Assembly (NCBI RefSeq): GCF_030055635.1
Contig: NZ_JASFYM010000002.1
Location: forward strand, 31,290-95,289
Source: Methanothrix sp.
GTDB lineage: Archaea; Halobacteriota; Methanosarcinia; Methanotrichales; Methanotrichaceae
DNA length: 64,000 nt
Direction of reading: 5' to 3'
Below the pieces are notes generated by a model. That model searched no databases. It worked only from the letters and a program-made list of their open reading frames with translations, and had not been told where the DNA came from. Positions 29,030 through 39,010 of this stretch are shown piece by piece (within the stretch, counting starts at the first letter, position 1; each line of letters begins with the position of its first letter). The position numbers and the translations under genes are program-made.

Positions 29030-29929
29030 ATGGAAGAATACCCGACGGCCGTTGTAGCTGACAGGGAGGTCCCCTACGATCCGGAACAGCTCAGGAGGAT
29101 CCGGGAGCATCCGTGCTTCAGCGAGAAGGCATGCCATGCCTTCGGGAGGATGCATCTTCCGGTCGCTCCGAAGTGCAACATTCAGTGCAAGTACTGCATA
29201 AGAGATTTTGATTGCGTTAACGAATCGAGACCAGGTGTGACGAGCAGGGTTCTGACCCCGCAGGAGGCGCTGGAGCGTGTCGATGAGGTTCTCTCTAAAT
29301 ATCATTATATAAAGGTCGTGGCTGTCGCAGGACCCGGGGAACCTCTCGCAAACGAGGAGACCTTCGAGACGCTGAGGCTCGTCGGGGAGAAGTACCCGCA
29401 TCTCATACTCTGCATAAGCACGAACGGCCTCCTACTTCCGGACAGGATCGAGGATCTCGACCGTATCGGGGTGACAAACATCACTGTAACGCTGAACGCG
29501 GTCGATCCAGCGATTGGGGAGCAGATATACGATTACGTCATCTACAAGGGAAAGCGGTATGAGGGGCTGGAGGCCGCGAAGATCCTGCTCGAGAACCAGC
29601 TCAGGGGGATCGAGGAGGCTGTGCGACGGAAGAAGATAGTCAAGGTGAACACAGTCCTGATCCCGGGAATAAACGACAGGCATGTCTTTGATATCGCGAG
29701 AAAGATAAAGTCGATGGGTGTGTTCATTCACAACGTGATGCCGCTCATACCCCAGTACAAGTTCGCTCACATTAAGCCTCCAACGCCGGAGGAGAAGAGG
29801 GCGATACAGGATGAGCTGAACAAGATAATAAAGCAGATGCGCCACTGCAGGCAGTGCAGGTCTGATGCAATCGGCCGGCTGGGATGCGACATACAGCAGG
29901 AGCTCGAGAAGGGCAAAAAGATATCCTGA
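29030..29929 (+). CDS. nifB: NifB, nitrogenase cofactor radical SAM enzyme (short archaeal form)
   Basis: 299 residues. N-terminal HPCFSEKACHAFGRMHLPVAP precedes the radical-SAM motif CNIQCKYCIRDFDCVNESRPG, and the C-terminal CRQCRSDAIGRLG supplies cysteines for the K2 cluster precursor. It lacks the NifX-like extension of bacterial NifB, as known for methanogens. It makes the 8Fe-9S-C NifB-cofactor from two 4Fe-4S clusters and SAM. AGGTGA lies ahead of the start. No other nif gene is nearby. Confidence 0.95.
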   Translation: MEEYPTAVVADREVPYDPEQLRRIREHPCFSEKACHAFGRMHLPVAPKCNIQCKYCIRDFDCVNESRPGVTSRVLTPQEALERVDEVLSKYHYIKVVAVAGPGEPLANEETFETLRLVGEKYPHLILCISTNGLLLPDRIEDLDRIGVTNITVTLNAVDPAIGEQIYDYVIYKGKRYEGLEAAKILLENQLRGIEEAVRRKKIVKVNTVLIPGINDRHVFDIARKIKSMGVFIHNVMPLIPQYKFAHIKPPTPEEKRAIQDELNKIIKQMRHCRQCRSDAIGRLGCDIQQELEKGKKIS

Positions 29930-30016: not shown

Positions 30017-30904
30017 CTAGGATTCTGCATCACGCGCGGCACGCACCCTGGCCAGGCGCTCCTTTGCTGCGGCGACCCTCCCCTTGACGCTGTTCTCATT
30101 TACAGCACACCTGTTGCACTCCCCGGATGAGTTCTGCTCTGCAGATGTCTCTGTCGTGTTCTCGCACCTCCCCTCGGTTATCACTATTATACCATCCCCG
30201 TATGAGAGGTTGTAGAGCAAAAGCGATGGAATGCTTGATGGCGCGAGGTACCTGAAACGCACCACTCCCCGGATGCTCTCGTTGGCGCTCAGCGTTTTTG
30301 GTTCAAATCCATCAGTCGCCCTGTAGCCCCAGCCCCACTGGTCCACGAGGGTATAGTTCTCAGGGGAGACCTTCAGAGGAGATGTGGAGTTGTTTCTTAC
30401 AGATACATCTATATCCAGCACCTTCCGGCTGTAATCAAGCCTGGATCCAACGATGCCATAGTATGTGACCGTGATGTTCTCATCCGAGTAGTTCAGCGGC
30501 TCTCCGAAATCCACCTTGAACACCTCCCCGATTCCGGAATCCACCACCAGGCTCTTCGGGATCGCCTCTCTGGGAACTGCGAATGCGAGAAGCTCCCGTC
30601 CCGGAGAGATTGGCCTGCTTGATGCCGCATCTCTGATATAGCTCCTGTCGTTTCCGTCGATCAGAACATACCTGACGCGGGGAAGCACCGCATAGCTCCC
30701 GTTGCTCCATCTCAGGCCCGCATCCAGGTACAGAACCATCCTGTCAGCATCGTAAGAGCCTCCCTGATACAGAGGCCCCTTGAACATGTCGAAGACGGTG
30801 CAGCAGAGCGCTCCGTTGCCACCCGTCACAGGCAGTCCGGATGCGGAATTCAACACAGAGAGCATCAGTATGAGCATGACCCCCAGGGCTGCTGTTCGTA
30901 TCAT
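30017..30904 (-). CDS. Secreted protein of unknown function with charged C-terminus
   Basis: About 295 residues from the ATG at 30904 (GGTGG ahead; an upstream GTG at 30916 is possible). A signal peptide (ALGVMLILMLSVLNSASG) is followed by a beta-rich body with many N-glycosylation sequons (NYSDENIT, NNST, NYT, NES, NLS). The segment SRKVLDIDVSVRNNSTSPLKVSPENYTLVDQWGWGY resembles the immunoglobulin-like fold of DUF4352-type proteins. The C-terminal ~50 residues contain three cysteines (CENTT, CNRC) and a basic helix. It follows the tubulin-like gene on the same strand, with its own palindromic promoter. Membership of that cluster is uncertain. Confidence 0.65.
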   Translation of the reverse strand: MIRTAALGVMLILMLSVLNSASGLPVTGGNGALCCTVFDMFKGPLYQGGSYDADRMVLYLDAGLRWSNGSYAVLPRVRYVLIDGNDRSYIRDAASSRPISPGRELLAFAVPREAIPKSLVVDSGIGEVFKVDFGEPLNYSDENITVTYYGIVGSRLDYSRKVLDIDVSVRNNSTSPLKVSPENYTLVDQWGWGYRATDGFEPKTLSANESIRGVVRFRYLAPSSIPSLLLYNLSYGDGIIVITEGRCENTTETSAEQNSSGECNRCAVNENSVKGRVAAAKERLARVRAARDAES

Positions 30905-30939
30905 CTCAGCCACCACAGGTTTTATGAATTACTTCCAAG

Positions 30940-31027: not shown

Positions 31028-32575
31028 TCACACAGCCGCTGGAAGCAGCTTCCTGAGCTCCTCGCGCACGATTCTTCTGATCGCCTCCTCCGAGAGCGCG
31101 TGGTTGTTCTGAGTATTGTTATCCTGTACCGGTCGGTTCTCAGGCAGATCCTCAAATATCCTGAGCTCATTCACAAAGAATGGCTTCTCTCCCTTCCTGA
31201 GCCTGGACTTCGCCGCGTTCAGCTCTATAACCAGGCGATCGAAGTACCTGCTCAGAGCCTCTGTAGTCAGATATGTCAGGCTCTGATCATCGCTCTGCTT
31301 CATGTGAATAAGCTCTTGCCTGTTCTCCTCTATGTAATTCAGGGCGAATGATACCACCCTGTGCATCCTTTTTTCAAACGGCCCGCTGCAGCCTGAGCCA
31401 TACGGGTTTCTCAGCAGTATCAGAACCTCGCTCTCCCTGTTTTCTCCTAGCTTCCTCCATGTGAATATATGGTTCGTATCGAGTCCGGTGATGCTCTTTA
31501 CAGACGACTCCAGCTTCTCAGCGGAGAGGTATCCTCTCGAGAAGACGAACGCCCTGTCTGCCATTGAAGGATCGCATGGGAAAAGCGGGCCGCATCCATC
31601 ATTCTGCACGCTTCCTGTGAGAGCCTTTGAGACCAGCTCCTCTTCAACGGATTTCTTGCTGTTCAACGATGCGTAGCATGGAACCATGACAGGGGGCCTG
31701 TTCAGGCCCTCAGTGAAGTTCTGCGCCAGGGAGAGAGACGGTGGGTCCTCCTGTGGAAATGCGCGGTCTGCCAGGAATGGTTTCATTACCTTAAATATGT
31801 AATTATTTATACTTGTGTAGTCCTGTTTGAACCTCTCAACGAGGATCTGGTTATCCACGAGAATCAGTGCATCAACGCCCTCTTTTGCGCTTTTGGTGAG
31901 CAGATCGTACATGGAGATCGTTGCGCCGAGATCTCTCCGCGCCTCCTTCGACTGCTGCTCCCTGTCTGCCTCATCACCCTGCTCTGTGAGAACGCCAAGT
32001 ACGAAGACCGGGTAGTCCTGGCTACCTCCGGATCTTATGTAGCGCAGGATCGGATTTATGAACCCCGTTCCGGTGCCGCCGCCCAGAGATACTATGAAAA
32101 GTATGTTATCGCATCTGCCCCCGCTGAGGGTTGTGAATCCCTTTATGGCATTCCAGGCGTTCTCGAGGATGGGATTGTCCTCCCCGAACTCCTCTCTGGC
32201 AACATTTCTAACCTCATCATCGTTATCGAATATCTCGAATATCGCCTTTAGGTACTGAGCCTCCCTGAAGAACCCCTGCTTCTTGACATCATATCCGTAC
32301 TTGCGCATGACGAGGGAGTGCGTCTTCGATCCCACATCTATTGAGTCATGTGGTATGACATACCCCGGGTACCCTTCCCTCAGGTTCTTGAAAAAGCTCT
32401 GCTTGTTAACCGCGGCGTTGACATCTGCCTCCAGCCATACACCCTCGATTCCGCCGAACGCAACATGCACGGCATTTGTTAATTTTGACAGGATCTTTAT
32501 TACATCCATGGAATTGAGAAAGACCATGAGCAGATTGCCGCCACATCCACCTATGCCAACACAGCATGATCTCAT
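31028..32575 (-). CDS. Divergent tubulin/FtsZ-superfamily protein
   Basis: 515 residues, longer than archaeal FtsZ (~370-400). Residues 7-13 (GIGGCGG) form the N-terminal glycine-rich loop and residues 165-171 (GGGTGTG) are the tubulin signature. VDALILVDNQILVERF (about 235-250) matches the FtsZ strand and helix that end in the base-contacting Asn, and SINNYI fits the next helix. I could not find the FtsZ catalytic T7 loop (N-x-D-x-x-D), so filament-coupled GTP hydrolysis may differ or be lost. The C-terminal ~120 residues are extended and charged, ending in a short helix (SEEAIRRIVREELRKLL). It overlaps the upstream membrane-protein gene by 4 nt (ATGA). Bacterial and archaeal tubulin-like proteins linked to VWA proteins have been described before; this protein may belong with them. 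Confidence 0.8.
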   Translation of the reverse strand: MRSCCVGIGGCGGNLLMVFLNSMDVIKILSKLTNAVHVAFGGIEGVWLEADVNAAVNKQSFFKNLREGYPGYVIPHDSIDVGSKTHSLVMRKYGYDVKKQGFFREAQYLKAIFEIFDNDDEVRNVAREEFGEDNPILENAWNAIKGFTTLSGGRCDNILFIVSLGGGTGTGFINPILRYIRSGGSQDYPVFVLGVLTEQGDEADREQQSKEARRDLGATISMYDLLTKSAKEGVDALILVDNQILVERFKQDYTSINNYIFKVMKPFLADRAFPQEDPPSLSLAQNFTEGLNRPPVMVPCYASLNSKKSVEEELVSKALTGSVQNDGCGPLFPCDPSMADRAFVFSRGYLSAEKLESSVKSITGLDTNHIFTWRKLGENRESEVLILLRNPYGSGCSGPFEKRMHRVVSFALNYIEENRQELIHMKQSDDQSLTYLTTEALSRYFDRLVIELNAAKSRLRKGEKPFFVNELRIFEDLPENRPVQDNNTQNNHALSEEAIRRIVREELRKLLPAAV

Positions 32576-33153
32576 CGACTGGCCTCCACGAACTCCTTAA
32601 ACACGGGGATGAAAAGCAAAATCAGGGCTGCCAGAAGCAGCAGCCAGGATAGAGTCTCAAGCGTCCTGTTCACGAAGGGATAATTGACAAAATTGTAGAT
32701 TGACAGTCCTGCCGAGCCCACAAGCACAAGCACCGTGGCTGCGCACAGAGACTTCTCGTTCCTCGATATTGGGTATATTCTGTAGATCTCAGAGAGCCTC
32801 AGCCATACAGGAAAGTTTCTGCTTGCCCATAGCAGGATCGATGCCAGTGATGCAGCGATCACAGCGAAAAGGACCAATCCGTAGTTGCTGGCAATTGGAA
32901 ACCCCAATCGAAGCAGCCAAGGGATCATTTTTGGAAGAAGGTAATACATGAACGCTACGAAGAACGCGACCCAGGAGGAAAAGACCATGGCAGAGAAGTT
33001 GGCTCCGTGATCTATGGACAGCAGCTCATACAGCTTATCCCTGGAGACGCTAGATGAGAGATCGGAGAGCCTCCGGTATATGCGCTCGAGGTTCATCCGG
33101 TGAATCACCAGTCCTATGAGCAGCAGGATGAGCAGCACCGCAGCCCAGATCAT
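32572..33153 (-). CDS. Polytopic membrane protein of the tubulin-like cluster
   Basis: 193 residues, no recognised family. A first membrane helix (residues 1-18) is followed by a basic amphipathic stretch (HRMNLERIYRRLSDLSSSVSRDKLYELL). Further membrane segments lie at about 58-75, 90-110, 138-158 and 168-185. Its ends overlap both neighbours by 4 nt, so the three genes are almost certainly translated together. It is a good candidate for the membrane anchor of the tubulin-like filament. Confidence 0.75.
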   Translation of the reverse strand: MIWAAVLLILLLIGLVIHRMNLERIYRRLSDLSSSVSRDKLYELLSIDHGANFSAMVFSSWVAFFVAFMYYLLPKMIPWLLRLGFPIASNYGLVLFAVIAASLASILLWASRNFPVWLRLSEIYRIYPISRNEKSLCAATVLVLVGSAGLSIYNFVNYPFVNRTLETLSWLLLLAALILLFIPVFKEFVEASR

Positions 33154-34604
33154 CTACTCCCCTCCTGGTTGCCCTTAATCTCCTTTTTCCTTCCTCTGCT
33201 GTTGCTCACGCGTTCCACGAGCACGCCGGCAGAGAGGAACATTATCAGGGGCAGGATCACATTTGCGATGCCCACTGGTGAGAGTATCGAGTAACTCACG
33301 ATCTTCGGGTTTATCGGTTTGTCACCTATGAGATCCATGCTCGTCCTGCCGTTCTGATCCGGCTCTGAGTATGAGAACCTGTACGCGAATGTCTTGTTAC
33401 TGTAAGATACGTCAAAGCTCGTCTCAAACGAGACCGTCTGTTTCTCAGGCGTCACTGTGATCGGCTTCGAGCCGCGGAGCTTCCACGGGCTGGACGGTGT
33501 GCTGGTGTAGAGGTACACCGTCAGCGGGAACGAGTTCTCATCCTGGCTCTTCACGTCTATGCTGAAGTTGTACCTGCCCCACCAGTAGTAGTTCTCATCC
33601 TCTGCAACCATCCTCGGGCTCTCGACGAGGAGCTTCGGGGTGGGCCTTATCTCAGGGCCATCTGCGATCTTCGTTGAGGTCACATTGATCCCATCGCCCA
33701 CAGTGTAGTAGTAGCGGAATGTCTTCCCTGCATCTTCCTTTCCGAAGAAACCGTACTCGCTGTTCCTGAACCTCACCGTCCCGCTGCCACGTAGCTCCTG
33801 GGTGACGTTCATCCGCTCAGTGCTGTTATCCTCATTCAGTATGTGGAGCGTCACATTCAGAGTATCACCATCGGGATCCATGATATCAGCTACATACTCT
33901 ATCGGATCGCTGTATCTCGGTCTGTACGTGACATTCGTGTAATTCACCTGCGGAGGATTGTTGATCACATCCAGCACAAGCACAGGGAAGAGCTGTGGGG
34001 ATGAGATCGACCAGTTGGATGAGTACATCTTGTACAGGCTATCAGTGTATTTTATCCTGAAGCGGACCTTGCCCACCTCTTTCAGGCTGCGCAGATCTGC
34101 TATCTCTGGGAAGCTCCTGTATGTGTAATTGATACCATCCGTGGAGAAGTATTCATTTACCTGCACGATCTGGGTCTGGCTGCTGACCTTCCTGAAATCC
34201 TCCCCTGGCGCGGCCATCTCGAGGTCTATGTAAATAGGCCGTCTTATCTCAAGCTCGTTCTCATTTGTCACATACGCCTGTATCTCCAAGGGATCGCTCC
34301 TGCGAACCGTTGTGTTTCCCCTGTAGTAGATGAGCACCGCAGGAAGCTTGTACTCTCCGGGAGGCGTGTACTCCTTCCAGAGCAAAGTCTGGAGATACTC
34401 AAACCTCTTCGGATTCTGCTTCTTCCCCTGCTCGAGCGCCTTTATTATCTTCTCCATATCTGTCTGCCTGTGGCTGCTCCCGCCTCCTCCGCCCCCTTCA
34501 GATGGGGTGGGAGGGGGAATGTCTATTACCGGACCTTCCGCAAATGCTGATACCAAAAACATGATGAGAACGATGAAGAGCAGAGCGAATCTCCCGTGTA
34601 TCAT
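33150..34604 (-). CDS. Exported single-span protein with extracellular beta domains and basic cytoplasmic tail
   Basis: 484 residues. Signal peptide (residues 1-22), then a Pro/Gly-rich linker (PPPTPSEG followed by glycines), a helical segment, and several beta-sandwich-like modules (DPLEIQAYVTNENELEIRRP; DPDGDTLNVTLHILNEDN; FSIDVKSQDENSFPLTVYL), rich in N-x-T/S. A membrane helix at about 445-467 is followed by a basic tail (RGRKKEIKG) that faces the cytosol. The topology could link an outside structure to the cytosolic tubulin-like protein. It lies 4 nt after the upstream gene and overlaps the next by 4 nt. Confidence 0.75.
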   Translation of the reverse strand: MIHGRFALLFIVLIMFLVSAFAEGPVIDIPPPTPSEGGGGGGSSHRQTDMEKIIKALEQGKKQNPKRFEYLQTLLWKEYTPPGEYKLPAVLIYYRGNTTVRRSDPLEIQAYVTNENELEIRRPIYIDLEMAAPGEDFRKVSSQTQIVQVNEYFSTDGINYTYRSFPEIADLRSLKEVGKVRFRIKYTDSLYKMYSSNWSISSPQLFPVLVLDVINNPPQVNYTNVTYRPRYSDPIEYVADIMDPDGDTLNVTLHILNEDNSTERMNVTQELRGSGTVRFRNSEYGFFGKEDAGKTFRYYYTVGDGINVTSTKIADGPEIRPTPKLLVESPRMVAEDENYYWWGRYNFSIDVKSQDENSFPLTVYLYTSTPSSPWKLRGSKPITVTPEKQTVSFETSFDVSYSNKTFAYRFSYSEPDQNGRTSMDLIGDKPINPKIVSYSILSPVGIANVILPLIMFLSAGVLVERVSNSRGRKKEIKGNQEGSR

Positions 34605-34608
34605 TAAC

Positions 34609-36222
34609 CTATCTCCTCACGTCGAACTGGACGCTTTTATACCAGGGGAGGTTGTTCCACGATAGCTCAGTCCAATTACCTGGTGTGTTGTAATTATGGA
34701 GGAGCCCTGAGCGTATCCAAGTTTTTCCGTCATGTGTGTAGACTAGCTCGACGTCAATCGGCCTCAGAGCTTTGACCCAGACTTTGTAGTTGAATCTGTC
34801 CGTGTTGCCTATCTTGCTATATGTCATGTCTTTAAAGCCAACATCGAACTCAGGCCCGAGAAACTCACCGAGCACATTGTTGTCGAGAACGAACCTGTAC
34901 ATGGCTGTTCCAAGGAGACTTGCATCATTGACATCGAATGTGACGTTCCTCCACACAAGTGTGCTGTTGGAGCCCGTGTATGTCACCATCCCCCTGGAGA
35001 CCCAGAGGTCAGATTCCGGAGGCTTTATCTGAAGCTCCAGATCGCATCTCGGTTTAGTGGTCTCGATCTCTGCTGTGTAGGTGTATGATGTGTAGGCGCT
35101 GCCCCTCTCTGGCGATACAGTCGTGTTCTTCACCCACACCACAACCAAATCAGGACCCGCGTAGTATCTTCCGATCATGTCCTTTGTTGTGGCGAAGGGG
35201 GACTCTGCATCGATGTAGTGGAAACCGTAGTAGTGCTGAGACGATCCATATGCTTCAGGCGTCGCTGTAACACGCACATCATCCCACTCCAGCCTCTCCC
35301 AGGTGGAGACGTTCCTGTACGTCCGCCTTCCCGCTGAAACGAAGCTCTTCGATCCGACATCCCACACATTCAGCGAGACCTCTATCTCCTTGGATGAGTT
35401 GACCTCGAGAGCGTACCTGAACGGGGTGTCAGAGAGCCCTCTATCCGGAGAGAGGCTCGCGTTTCTGAACTCGACCGAGACAGGCCAGAAGGGGCCGTCG
35501 AAGGTCTTCTCCTTTCTCCCCACAAATCTGTAGTAGGCAGAGCTGAAGTCGAAGTCCAGGGACACGTTCTGCCATCTCAGCACCCTCCAGCTCCCAGGTG
35601 TGGTGTACTCCTGTGTTCCCACGGGCGTCCAGGGACCGTTCTTCGATGGAGCGACCTCAAGCGTTATGTTGTCAGGTGCCGTGGAGAAGACGCTCACCTC
35701 GTATGTGTAGAGGTCCTCCCTGGTGCCCTTTCGTGGGGTCACAGAGGCGTCCCTGAACTCCTCGAAGACCTTCACCAGCGTCGGATGGCCGGTGTAGTCC
35801 TCCCTGACCACCGGCTTCTCAAAGGGGTCAAGCGATGTGACTGTTGCCTTGTACCATGTCCTGTCCCATATGCTCGTGTCGTTTTTGTCCGATAACCATC
35901 TCCCGAAATCGCCCTTTCTGAGATCCGGAGACTGGAAGTTGACCTCGAATCTGAGCACGCCCGTGGCACCTGGATTCAGATTCAGCTTCTCCGTGAAGCT
36001 CTTCGAGATCGAGGTATCAGATGAATCCGGACCGACCGTGAGCTCCACGGTGTACATCATCGAGTTCTTCGCGCCGGAGAGCTCCACAACGTAGACCAGG
36101 CTCTTGCCGACATCCAGAGGCTCTCTGGGCGTGCCCTCCTGAGAGAAGTAGATCGATGCATCTATTCCACGGGAAGATGTGATGGCAAACACAAGCAGTA
36201 TGAGACACAGCAATCTTCTCAA
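34609..36222 (-). CDS. Secreted protein with four tandem beta-sandwich repeats
   Basis: 537 residues with a signal peptide (residues 1-19) and no C-terminal membrane helix. After an N-terminal domain (20-150) come four related units at about 155-252, 253-365, 366-461 and 462-537. Each has a start like VTPRKG or LSPDRG, a middle with Y.YEV or Y.AEI, and an end like W..L.W.NV. These resemble extracellular adhesion modules. It is the first gene of the four-gene tubulin-like operon; a TTTAAA box lies at about 36330. No enzyme motif is seen. Confidence 0.75.
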   Translation of the reverse strand: MRRLLCLILLVFAITSSRGIDASIYFSQEGTPREPLDVGKSLVYVVELSGAKNSMMYTVELTVGPDSSDTSISKSFTEKLNLNPGATGVLRFEVNFQSPDLRKGDFGRWLSDKNDTSIWDRTWYKATVTSLDPFEKPVVREDYTGHPTLVKVFEEFRDASVTPRKGTREDLYTYEVSVFSTAPDNITLEVAPSKNGPWTPVGTQEYTTPGSWRVLRWQNVSLDFDFSSAYYRFVGRKEKTFDGPFWPVSVEFRNASLSPDRGLSDTPFRYALEVNSSKEIEVSLNVWDVGSKSFVSAGRRTYRNVSTWERLEWDDVRVTATPEAYGSSQHYYGFHYIDAESPFATTKDMIGRYYAGPDLVVVWVKNTTVSPERGSAYTSYTYTAEIETTKPRCDLELQIKPPESDLWVSRGMVTYTGSNSTLVWRNVTFDVNDASLLGTAMYRFVLDNNVLGEFLGPEFDVGFKDMTYSKIGNTDRFNYKVWVKALRPIDVELVYTHDGKTWIRSGLLHNYNTPGNWTELSWNNLPWYKSVQFDVRR

Positions 36223-36480
36223 TCACCTAACCCCCATGCCCACACACTCACCCGACCGCTATGATTCGCATCTGCACTCGCTGCCCCTATCCGAGGGCCT
36301 GCTCTCACATCCCTTACACGATAATAACATTTAAAGCCTTCTGCAGGTGATGGATCGCGATTGTCACTCTCATGTATTCAGAAACCCATGCAGGCGTGAA
36401 TATCAGGAGAAACAAATAAAAACCGCGCCAAGCAATCCATTGCGGTACAAGTGATTCTGTAGCGCCTATAGAATAAAACT

Positions 36481-36499
36481 GCCGGGAATCGATCCCGGC
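36481..36499 (-). terminator. Terminator-like hairpin after the VWA gene
   Basis: GCCGGGA and TCCCGGC pair around a five-base loop directly behind the stop codon of the VWA gene. On the minus strand the hairpin is followed by AGTTTTATTC. It would separate the VWA transcript from the downstream four-gene operon. Confidence 0.55.
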
Positions 36500-36500
36500 C

Positions 36501-38846
36501 TCAGGAACGTCTCGTGTACAGATATATCGCCATCAGGGAGAGCACACCCAGCAGCACCTCGAATCCGGGCTGTGTCCTCTTACCCGCCGGTGCCTCTGGT
36601 GTCTCGCTCGCCTCTCTGCTCTGCTGCGTCTGTTCAGCCACTGCTGACGTCTTGCATGGCGCTCCGCAGGTTATCCACATTCTGCCCTCTGCAAGTGGCA
36701 GCTCGTAGTGCTGCCTCCGCGGTGCTGCGCATGATAGCGCCGGCCAGTCGAAGTCCACTCTGGAGTAAGGCGTGCTGGAGCTGATGTTGCCGCCGAATCC
36801 GGATCTCCTCTCCGCGACATCCACAGGCAGCTTCATCTGTACCGATGTGTCGATCGTGGCGCTCCACCGCTCTCCGGTGTTCAGGGTCCCGATGTTCCAT
36901 CTGAGCGTCGTCGAGCCATCTCTGTTATGGGTAACCGCAGATGGCACTGGATCGGCGCCGGTGTACCTGAGATACGGGTAAAGCGTCTCGGTGAGTGTGA
37001 CGTTGTTGACCCACGGCCCCTGTGCGCATCCACCCATCCTCTCCAGCACCGTAGATAGTAGGTTCCCGGCGGTGAGGCTCTCCGGCGCCGCTGTGCCACG
37101 CTGCAGGGGATCGCCGTACATCGCAATCTCAGTCAGGTCCTTCAGCTCCAGAGGATAACCGTTCAGATCTGTGCCGATGTAGAACGGGAAGATGCCCTCG
37201 AACCCTCCGCGGATCAGTGTGCTGTTCCTTGGGATCGTATAAAGCACGCTGGATTTCGAAATCCCCTTGAACTCGCTGCGGCATGTTATGAATATTATGA
37301 ACCGCCGGCTGTCACAGCTCAGCGGATCGTCCGCCTGCGAATTTATGCGGCTGTGCATGATACGCATCGCTTTCTGCAGCCCTGCCTCGTAGAACGTAAG
37401 ATCCGTCTCCTTGCATGTGCGTTCGTTGTACTCCTGGATCGTCGCCGCTATTCTTGGATCTCCGATCGTGAGCCACTGCGGGTCAAGTGTTGTAATCCTG
37501 TCGTAATCATCAGTAACATTCAGGTCGTCCCAGCTCACGATGGCGATCCTCGCATTCCTGAGCTCAGGAGTGCTCGCTGCCGCATTGAGCATCTCATAAA
37601 GCGCATCCTGCATGATCTCGAAGTTCGCTCTGCCGCTGCTATCGCGATCCCTCATGCTACCGGATTTGTCTATGGCAAAAAGGATATCCGCGTTGCATGA
37701 TCTCTCTGGTGTATCAAGCGTTATCCTCAGCCTCGGGCAGTCAGGGCAGGGTGCATTTCCGTTCGGCAGGACTTCTTTGCTCACGCTCAGCACGCTGATG
37801 TTCTGTACCACAGATGCATTGCTTCCGCCGATGCCGCTGCCCTCCAGGCTGAACGATCCGGGCGGGCTGACCCTCAGGGTCGCGGGAGGAATTGCAACCG
37901 CTGAGCGTGTGTTGTCGCATTCGGTGTAGCTGACCGCTGTATCGGGAGCTGTGCCGAGGACGAACGTGCCGGGATCCGGCGAGCTCACATCAAATGAGAG
38001 GGTCCTGCTCTGGTTTGCCAGAACCGTCCCGATCTGCCAGGTCAGAACAGTCAAGTCACCCTCCTTCCTCAGGGATGCCACAGGCTGTGTTCCAGTGTAC
38101 GGGGAGAGATTCACACTCAGGGACGATGGCAGCACATAGCTTACAATCACATCCCTCGCCGCGATGCCGGTGATGCTGCTCCTGATCCTCTGGTATATTC
38201 CGGCCAGAGCGCTCGCATCGGGTGCGCTGTAGAACTCCCCACCGGTGCTGTGTGCGATCTCCGTGAGGTTTCTCGCATCAGCATCAGGACCGAGAGCTAT
38301 GGTGAAGACCATGATCCCCTTCGCTCTGGCCTCATCCACAGGAGATCCCGGAATGCCGGGAGGTGTGTAATGGCCACCATCTGTGCTGATGCCATCTGTG
38401 AGAAGCACTATCACCTTTGATCCGCTGCTCTCCGAGAGCAGATCGATCGCAGACTCCAGGCCTGTATCCAGAGATGTATATCCATCAGCACCGATGCTCT
38501 CTATCGACGATTCGATATCTCTGAGGTTGTTCGTGAGCGGCCAGGATACTGCTGATGTGTTCCAGCTGACTACACCGACCCTGTCCATGCTCAGATCCAG
38601 GCCTGAGACGAACTCCCTGGCAGCAGATTTTCTCAGATCATGAGGATCGCTTGTCGTCATGCTGCCAGAGCTGTCTATCGAGAGAACAACATCTATCGGA
38701 CTGGCGCAGGGCGCCTCCCCTCCTTTGAGGGTTATGCTCACAGTGGTGGTCTCAGAGGGGGAAATGACATTCCTGCTCAGATGCTGTTCAGCATTCACCG
38801 CTGAACCCAATGCCCCGTCAGTCAGGACTAAAACAAGGATCACCAA
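36501..38846 (-). CDS. Large surface protein with two VWA domains and a PGF-CTERM-like anchor
   Basis: 781 residues from the TTG at 38846. VWA domain 1 (about 49-225) has a full MIDAS set: DSSGS at 58-62, Thr125, and Asp152 in LLTDG. VWA domain 2 starts near 386 with DKSGS (394-398), but the later Asp position reads TCRSEF, so metal binding may be weakened. Beta-sandwich modules follow each domain. The C-terminus is QPGFEVLLG, a membrane helix and RRS, which matches the archaeosortase PGF-CTERM pattern. The frame extends upstream to an ideal signal-peptide n-region (IIRRKVVL) behind AGGAGGT, where the start would be ATC at 38864 or 38867. It lies 278 bp upstream of the tubulin-like operon. 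Confidence 0.85.
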   Translation of the reverse strand: MVILVLVLTDGALGSAVNAEQHLSRNVISPSETTTVSITLKGGEAPCASPIDVVLSIDSSGSMTTSDPHDLRKSAAREFVSGLDLSMDRVGVVSWNTSAVSWPLTNNLRDIESSIESIGADGYTSLDTGLESAIDLLSESSGSKVIVLLTDGISTDGGHYTPPGIPGSPVDEARAKGIMVFTIALGPDADARNLTEIAHSTGGEFYSAPDASALAGIYQRIRSSITGIAARDVIVSYVLPSSLSVNLSPYTGTQPVASLRKEGDLTVLTWQIGTVLANQSRTLSFDVSSPDPGTFVLGTAPDTAVSYTECDNTRSAVAIPPATLRVSPPGSFSLEGSGIGGSNASVVQNISVLSVSKEVLPNGNAPCPDCPRLRITLDTPERSCNADILFAIDKSGSMRDRDSSGRANFEIMQDALYEMLNAAASTPELRNARIAIVSWDDLNVTDDYDRITTLDPQWLTIGDPRIAATIQEYNERTCKETDLTFYEAGLQKAMRIMHSRINSQADDPLSCDSRRFIIFITCRSEFKGISKSSVLYTIPRNSTLIRGGFEGIFPFYIGTDLNGYPLELKDLTEIAMYGDPLQRGTAAPESLTAGNLLSTVLERMGGCAQGPWVNNVTLTETLYPYLRYTGADPVPSAVTHNRDGSTTLRWNIGTLNTGERWSATIDTSVQMKLPVDVAERRSGFGGNISSSTPYSRVDFDWPALSCAAPRRQHYELPLAEGRMWITCGAPCKTSAVAEQTQQSREASETPEAPAGKRTQPGFEVLLGVLSLMAIYLYTRRS

Positions 38847-39010
38847 AACGACCTTCCGTCTGATGATTTTACCTCCTACATCTCAACTGTATGCAAAAAT
38901 ATCATCTCAAACTATTTTATCCTATCCACACTCTAAAAATATCTTTTTATATATTCACATCAGTATCTCTGCCAACATCCTTTTATCCTACCCTTTACGT
39001 CCTCAGGCTC

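Follow-up and report, generated by a model that had tools for sequence, protein, structure and literature searches.

In FtsZ and tubulin the catalytic acids are given to the next subunit by the T7 loop, whose motif NxDxxD contains the acidic residues. Among the archaeal members of this superfamily is CetZ, which governs the shape of Haloferax cells (PMC9856176). In the FtsZl1 systems (Tubulin_2, PF13809), which occur in many bacteria and archaea, VWA and membrane proteins are encoded near an FtsZ-like protein of diverged sequence (Makarova and Koonin, 2010; PMC2875224). Other non-canonical archaeal proteins of the superfamily, including Halo.Tub, are CetZ-like outliers, some of them in Halobacteriota (PMC9871819, PMC9856176). 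We have studied a locus of Methanothrix sp. in which a tubulin-like gene lies among genes for membrane and exported proteins. For this purpose we analyzed a stretch of DNA of 64,000 nucleotides, referred to as the window.

The genes follow one another in a single orientation, that of the minus strand, between 31.0 and 38.9 kb, and are transcribed in the order VWA, REP4, EXP, TM, TUB (Table 1). A preliminary description of this DNA had placed five open reading frames here, with a glycine loop and a GGGTGTG signature in TUB, and all were recovered as described. The TM and TUB frames overlap by ATGA, as do those of EXP and TM, and only 4 bp separate the REP4 stop from EXP, while the gap between VWA and REP4 is 278 bp. 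The short spacing and the overlaps thus indicate that REP4, EXP, TM and TUB form a tightly coupled operon, with VWA set apart. The DUF4352-like gene downstream probably lies outside the operon; it was seen beside it only in the genus of the window and in genome G006. A NifB-like radical SAM protein, recognized by eye, is encoded on the opposite strand at 29030-29929 of the window. PADLOC and PHROGs assigned REP4, EXP, TM and TUB to no family; VWA gave matches of the VWA type, all of them weak. A defence or phage origin of the operon was dropped on this result.

Table 1. Features of the locus, in positions of the window
Feature	Position	Strand	Description
TUB	31028..32575	-	515 aa; diverged CetZ-like predicted GTPase of the tubulin/FtsZ superfamily; GTP-binding loops kept, T7 aspartate lost; linker and conserved terminal helix
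TM	32572..33153	-	193 aa; polytopic, ~5 spans; basic cytosolic loops; conserved (H/Q)GxNF motif
EXP	33150..34604	-	484 aa; exported; Ig-like (Big_9-like) ectodomain, one C-terminal span, cytosolic tail with ER start
REP4	34609..36222	-	537 aa; secreted; N-terminal domain and four Ig/Fn3-like repeats, without membrane anchor
REP4 four repeats	34612..35778 (35482-35778, 35149-35481, 34846-35148, 34612-34845)	-	Self-alignment; AF2 model pLDDT 94
VWA	36501..38846	-	781 aa; exported; two VWA domains, MIDAS-like DxSxS motifs, PGF-CTERM-like end
DUF4352-like exported protein	30017..30916	-	Directly downstream of the operon

The assignment of the 515-residue protein to the tubulin superfamily, proposed in the preliminary description, was upheld by profile-profile comparison. 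TUB matched CetZ with a probability of 99.2% and E = 5.7e-19 over 452 residues (1-452), the C-terminal domain included, and FtsZ with E = 6e-8; controls with unrelated proteins of the operon gave no match. The Pfam profile PF00091 gave only 25.6 bits for the window TUB alone, under its curated cut-off of 33 bits, but it matched all 33 TUB relatives, the best at 4.3e-9. When the TUB family profile was searched against the PDB, the top entries were the CetZ-type 4b45 (4.8e-5) and 3zid (1e-4), which we take to be CetZ structures, together with eukaryotic tubulins. By these comparisons of sequence TUB is a true member of the FtsZ/tubulin superfamily, of its own kind, and its best profile match points to CetZ as its nearest relative. 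TUB has neither the CetZ-type T7 sequence (TDLGD) nor the CetZ length of ~370-400 aa, and the same genome encodes FtsZ1 and CetZ of the ordinary kind elsewhere. AF2 modelling of TUB with four close sequences gave a pLDDT of 35.

The window TUB has the glycine loop GIGGCGG and the T4 signature GGGTGTG. In an alignment of 33 members (A1), T1 (GIGGxG; G7, G9, G10, G12), T4 (GGGTGTG; G165-G171) and the T6 asparagine (D241, N242) are invariant. Aligned with CetZ and, separately, with FtsZ, TUB has residues 279 and 282 at the positions of the T7 aspartates. The first position is Pro in 20 of the 33 sequences and Asp in 10, while the second is Ala in 28, Gly in three and Ser in two, and Asp in none. 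With T1, T4 and T6 invariant and the T7 acid gone, GTP binding by TUB is likely and hydrolysis of the FtsZ type doubtful. An acidic residue adjoining T7, E276 (acidic in 85% of members), could restore hydrolysis. The loss at T7 lowers the likelihood that TUB works like FtsZ, and leaves the homology unaffected. TUB also has long inserts before T4, which could block filament contacts. Beyond the core there is a variable linker followed by a conserved terminal helix, an arrangement that may be compared with the C-terminal peptide of FtsZ.

The other operon proteins are predicted to lie in or outside the membrane. Sequence prediction gave ~5 spans for TM, a signal segment and one C-terminal span for EXP, and a signal segment only for REP4, in keeping with the polytopic, single-span and secreted proteins of the preliminary description. 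The basic tail which that description gave EXP, a long one, is not a conserved feature; many members have a short tail of the ER(R)FYR type. TM matched no transport or secretion family, and the Big_9-like match of EXP was under the cut-off (E = 0.0026). The four repeats of REP4 are real, with a self-alignment score of 118 against a maximum of 56 for shuffled sequences. A model of one repeat, built on 16 repeat sequences, is a seven-strand sandwich (pLDDT 94) whose nearest solved structures are Fn3/Ig-like domains; the best matches were large GH3 enzymes, over one domain. REP4 relatives span 537-1460 aa, and no anchor was seen in them.

By tblastn, TUB was found in 45 of 50 Methanotrichaceae genomes (32 of the 33 good ones; 10 of 11 genera). 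M. thermoacetophila PT (G046) and M. harundinacea 6Ac (G011) have the operon. When 394 genomes of the phylum were searched with a profile, full-length relatives were returned only from Methanotrichaceae and from one contig of G085, a genome of another archaeal family; the other matches were partial and weak, and nearly all were ordinary frames of FtsZ or CetZ size. Outside the phylum the genomes were scanned for close TUB relatives only. No TUB relative was found in the viral_contigs scan with the TUB alignment, or in phage and plasmid collections. The G085 copy might be taken as a sign of wider distribution, but this was rejected, since it nests within the Methanotrichaceae tree (support 99/99), is the only one in the five genomes of its own family, and comes from a genome without a match to the SH sheath proteins. 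Either the contig was mis-binned or the copy was transferred once. A 1271-aa surface protein with SdrD_B/SpaA repeats, VWA and a CTERM-like end adjoins the operon on this contig (L099, 457-4272). In G005 the TUB frame is broken by an in-frame TAG (L057, 8721-10478), through sequencing error, pseudogene formation or another cause. In M. thermoacetophila PT, L104 1-852 holds open reading frames of a short repeated peptide, VSILVFLELALRP, apparently read-through of a CRISPR array. The literature searched, within which few subscription-journal papers fell, contained no description of the TUB family or its operon, and this is not proof of novelty.

Wherever the locus is not truncated by the end of a contig, EXP, TM and TUB are direct neighbours in one orientation; this holds in 10 genera, and REP4-like genes stand upstream in nearly all loci. 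Thus four genes of the five-gene order suggested in the preliminary description are consistent neighbours, and the fifth, VWA, falls outside the fixed operon. EXP follows TUB in its distribution: the two coincide in 10 of 10 carriers in a sample of 247 genomes of the phylum, and both are missing from M. concilii GP6. The gene trees are correlated in their distances (0.88 for TUB-TM, 0.75 for TUB-EXP and 0.53 for TUB-REP4, against permuted maxima of 0.20-0.31, that for TUB-TM being 0.20), with a contribution from shared species history. Three genomes (G010, G012, G001) have two operons each. In eight genera the operon follows rnhB and an aminotransferase gene of class V; in the genus of the window it lies elsewhere. 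Upstream of rnhB near the operon, several genera encode one to three copies of secreted proteins of 210-270 aa without a Pfam match (L038, L039, L041, L046, L054, L060, L061, L166), with the pattern FGSKV...YlD...NdvRL.

We also examined the association with VWA proteins. The upstream gene of the window does contain two VWA domains, and its PGF-CTERM end is near threshold (18.5 bits against 18.8), much as first described. In 27 genomes and that of the window, 13 of 31 operons have a VWA gene at a distance of 13 kb or less, where 1.1 would be expected (94 VWA genes in 66.6 Mb), a figure that overstates independence between related genomes, yet one to which four genera of Methanotrichaceae contribute. 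In 100,000 simulations the number of operons never exceeded seven. Our first view, that VWA is a chance neighbour, was overturned by this count, and the link to VWA surface proteins drawn in the preliminary description is sustained. The ortholog of the window VWA is upstream of the operon in most genomes of that genus, elsewhere in G046 and not seen beside the operon in G044. Other VWA genes, 13 kb or less from the operon, are present in G009, G010, G011, G012, G003, G017, G031, G040 and G085; neither their position nor their strand is constant. VWA is a frequent neighbour, not a fixed member of the operon, and lies outside the overlapping block.

These features lead us to propose that TUB may polymerize, be tethered and join a complex with the products of its neighbours. 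On our best reading, held with a probability of about 0.4, TUB would be a membrane-tethered CetZ derivative, hydrolyzing GTP slowly or not at all, that organizes an adhesin-like surface complex. The operon would encode a trans-envelope complex, in which TUB, a GTP binder, forms filaments or oligomers beneath the membrane. With the catalytic aspartate of T7 lost, these assemblies would turn over slowly or never. TM would tether TUB to the membrane, perhaps through the linker and C-terminal helix of TUB, and would be partnered by EXP, whose Ig-like ectodomain might hold the anchorless REP4 outside the cell, often with VWA surface proteins. The assembly of TUB inside could thereby cluster or position the complex at the surface. 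The pairing, in a fixed cluster, of a diverged internal tubulin relative with membrane and exported Ig-like proteins suggests, without proving it, that structures outside the cell are arranged by a filament or switch within; a role in adhesion or in organizing the surface is our most economical guess. A bolder form, in which TUB without its hydrolysis loop makes a stable track inside the cell, mechanically linked through a dedicated membrane pair to Ig-repeat and VWA adhesins, as a tubulin-based counterpart of an adhesion junction, is unlikely. If the best reading is true, the fixed genetic link of a tubulin relative with exported Ig-like proteins would be a concrete candidate for the way in which an archaeon couples its interior to its surface.

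The absence of the operon from M. concilii GP6 offers a ready natural comparison. This organism has a sheath and spacer plugs (PMC6242892, citing Patel et al., 1986; PMC4243693). In its complete genome (G016) no TUB was found by tblastn or profile search, and no EXP even at E = 1. At L165 6184-9816, rnhB and the class V aminotransferase gene are intact and are followed by unrelated genes, so that the operon site is empty, a case of natural loss or of a gene set never gained. Since the complete genome of this growing isolate is without it, the function of the operon is accessory.

That function might be in cell shape or division, with TUB doing the work of a CetZ or an FtsZ at midcell or at the poles, and EXP and REP4 serving as envelope proteins of septum or wall, partners in growth, not adhesion. 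The role of CetZ, the closest relative of TUB, in Haloferax (PMC9856176) fits this, as does the near-universal presence of the operon in the rod- and filament-forming Methanotrichaceae. However, GP6 still forms sheathed filaments (PMC6242892, PMC4243693), division proper is already covered by FtsZ1 and CetZ in the same genome, and no division genes are found among the conserved neighbours. We regard this explanation as unlikely.

It is distinctly unlikely that TUB is a non-polymerizing GTP switch, gating an export or assembly unit of TM and EXP that delivers REP4. The lost T7 aspartate and the large inserts would suit a switch, and TUB co-varies most tightly with TM; yet TM resembles no transport or secretion family, and the signal segments of REP4 and EXP suggest ordinary Sec export.

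A part in building the Methanothrix sheath or spacer plugs is less probable still. The operon is restricted to the family, and SH-like genes, sought with a presumptive SH sequence from the region of M. thermoacetophila where gene numbering puts Mthe_0667/0668, occur in 12 of 12 Methanotrichaceae genomes examined. SH proteins also carry Ig-like domains, and the assembly and plug proteins are unknown (PMC11576556). SH-like genes were seen ~2.4 kb from the operon in G018 (L047, 13987-14802) and 6-7 kb away in G011 (C2, 1803097-1803897). Such proximity, in 2 of 11 genomes with the operon, is about what chance predicts from the number of SH genes. Moreover GP6, with its sheath, its plugs and 12 SH-like matches, lacks TUB and EXP. 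As GP6 is sheathed and plugged without the operon, neither structure requires it; the role in the sheath raised in the preliminary description is, as a requirement, largely refuted.

PF13809 gave 15.5 bits for the window TUB (cut-off 27) and weak matches in 6 of 33 members (best 4.3e-4), and the profile-profile probability against archaeal FtsZl1 was 0.05%, with an FtsZl1 alignment that failed to match FtsZ too, so that this comparison has little power. An archaeal version of the FtsZl1/VWA membrane-remodelling system, a comparison opened by the preliminary description, is highly improbable: the general set of diverged FtsZ-like, VWA and membrane proteins is shared (PMC2875224), but the profile match is missing, the conserved neighbours include no kinase or P-loop GTPase, and the T6-H7 region is alignable in TUB, unlike that of FtsZl1 as described (PMC2875224).

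Comparison with the known systems brings out what is particular to this locus. The SH sheath proteins (PMC11576556) are, like EXP and REP4, exported beta-rich proteins with Ig-like domains in the same organisms; REP4 and EXP were compared with SH-like proteins and showed no similarity to them. FtsZl1 systems share the kinds of neighbour, whereas TUB has no detectable sequence relation to FtsZl1, is without the kinase and P-loop GTPase partners, and is confined to a single archaeal family. By its published description Halo.Tub occurs in quasi-tandem copies beside coiled-coil proteins, in contrast with the TUB operon. CetZ comes nearest. Its GTPase core and C-terminal domain are alignable with TUB over nearly the whole protein, and T1, T4 and T6 are kept in both. 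TUB differs in the missing T7 aspartate, in the inserts before T4 and in the additional C-terminal linker and helix, and it belongs to a fixed operon with exported proteins, while a separate, ordinary CetZ is retained in the same genome.
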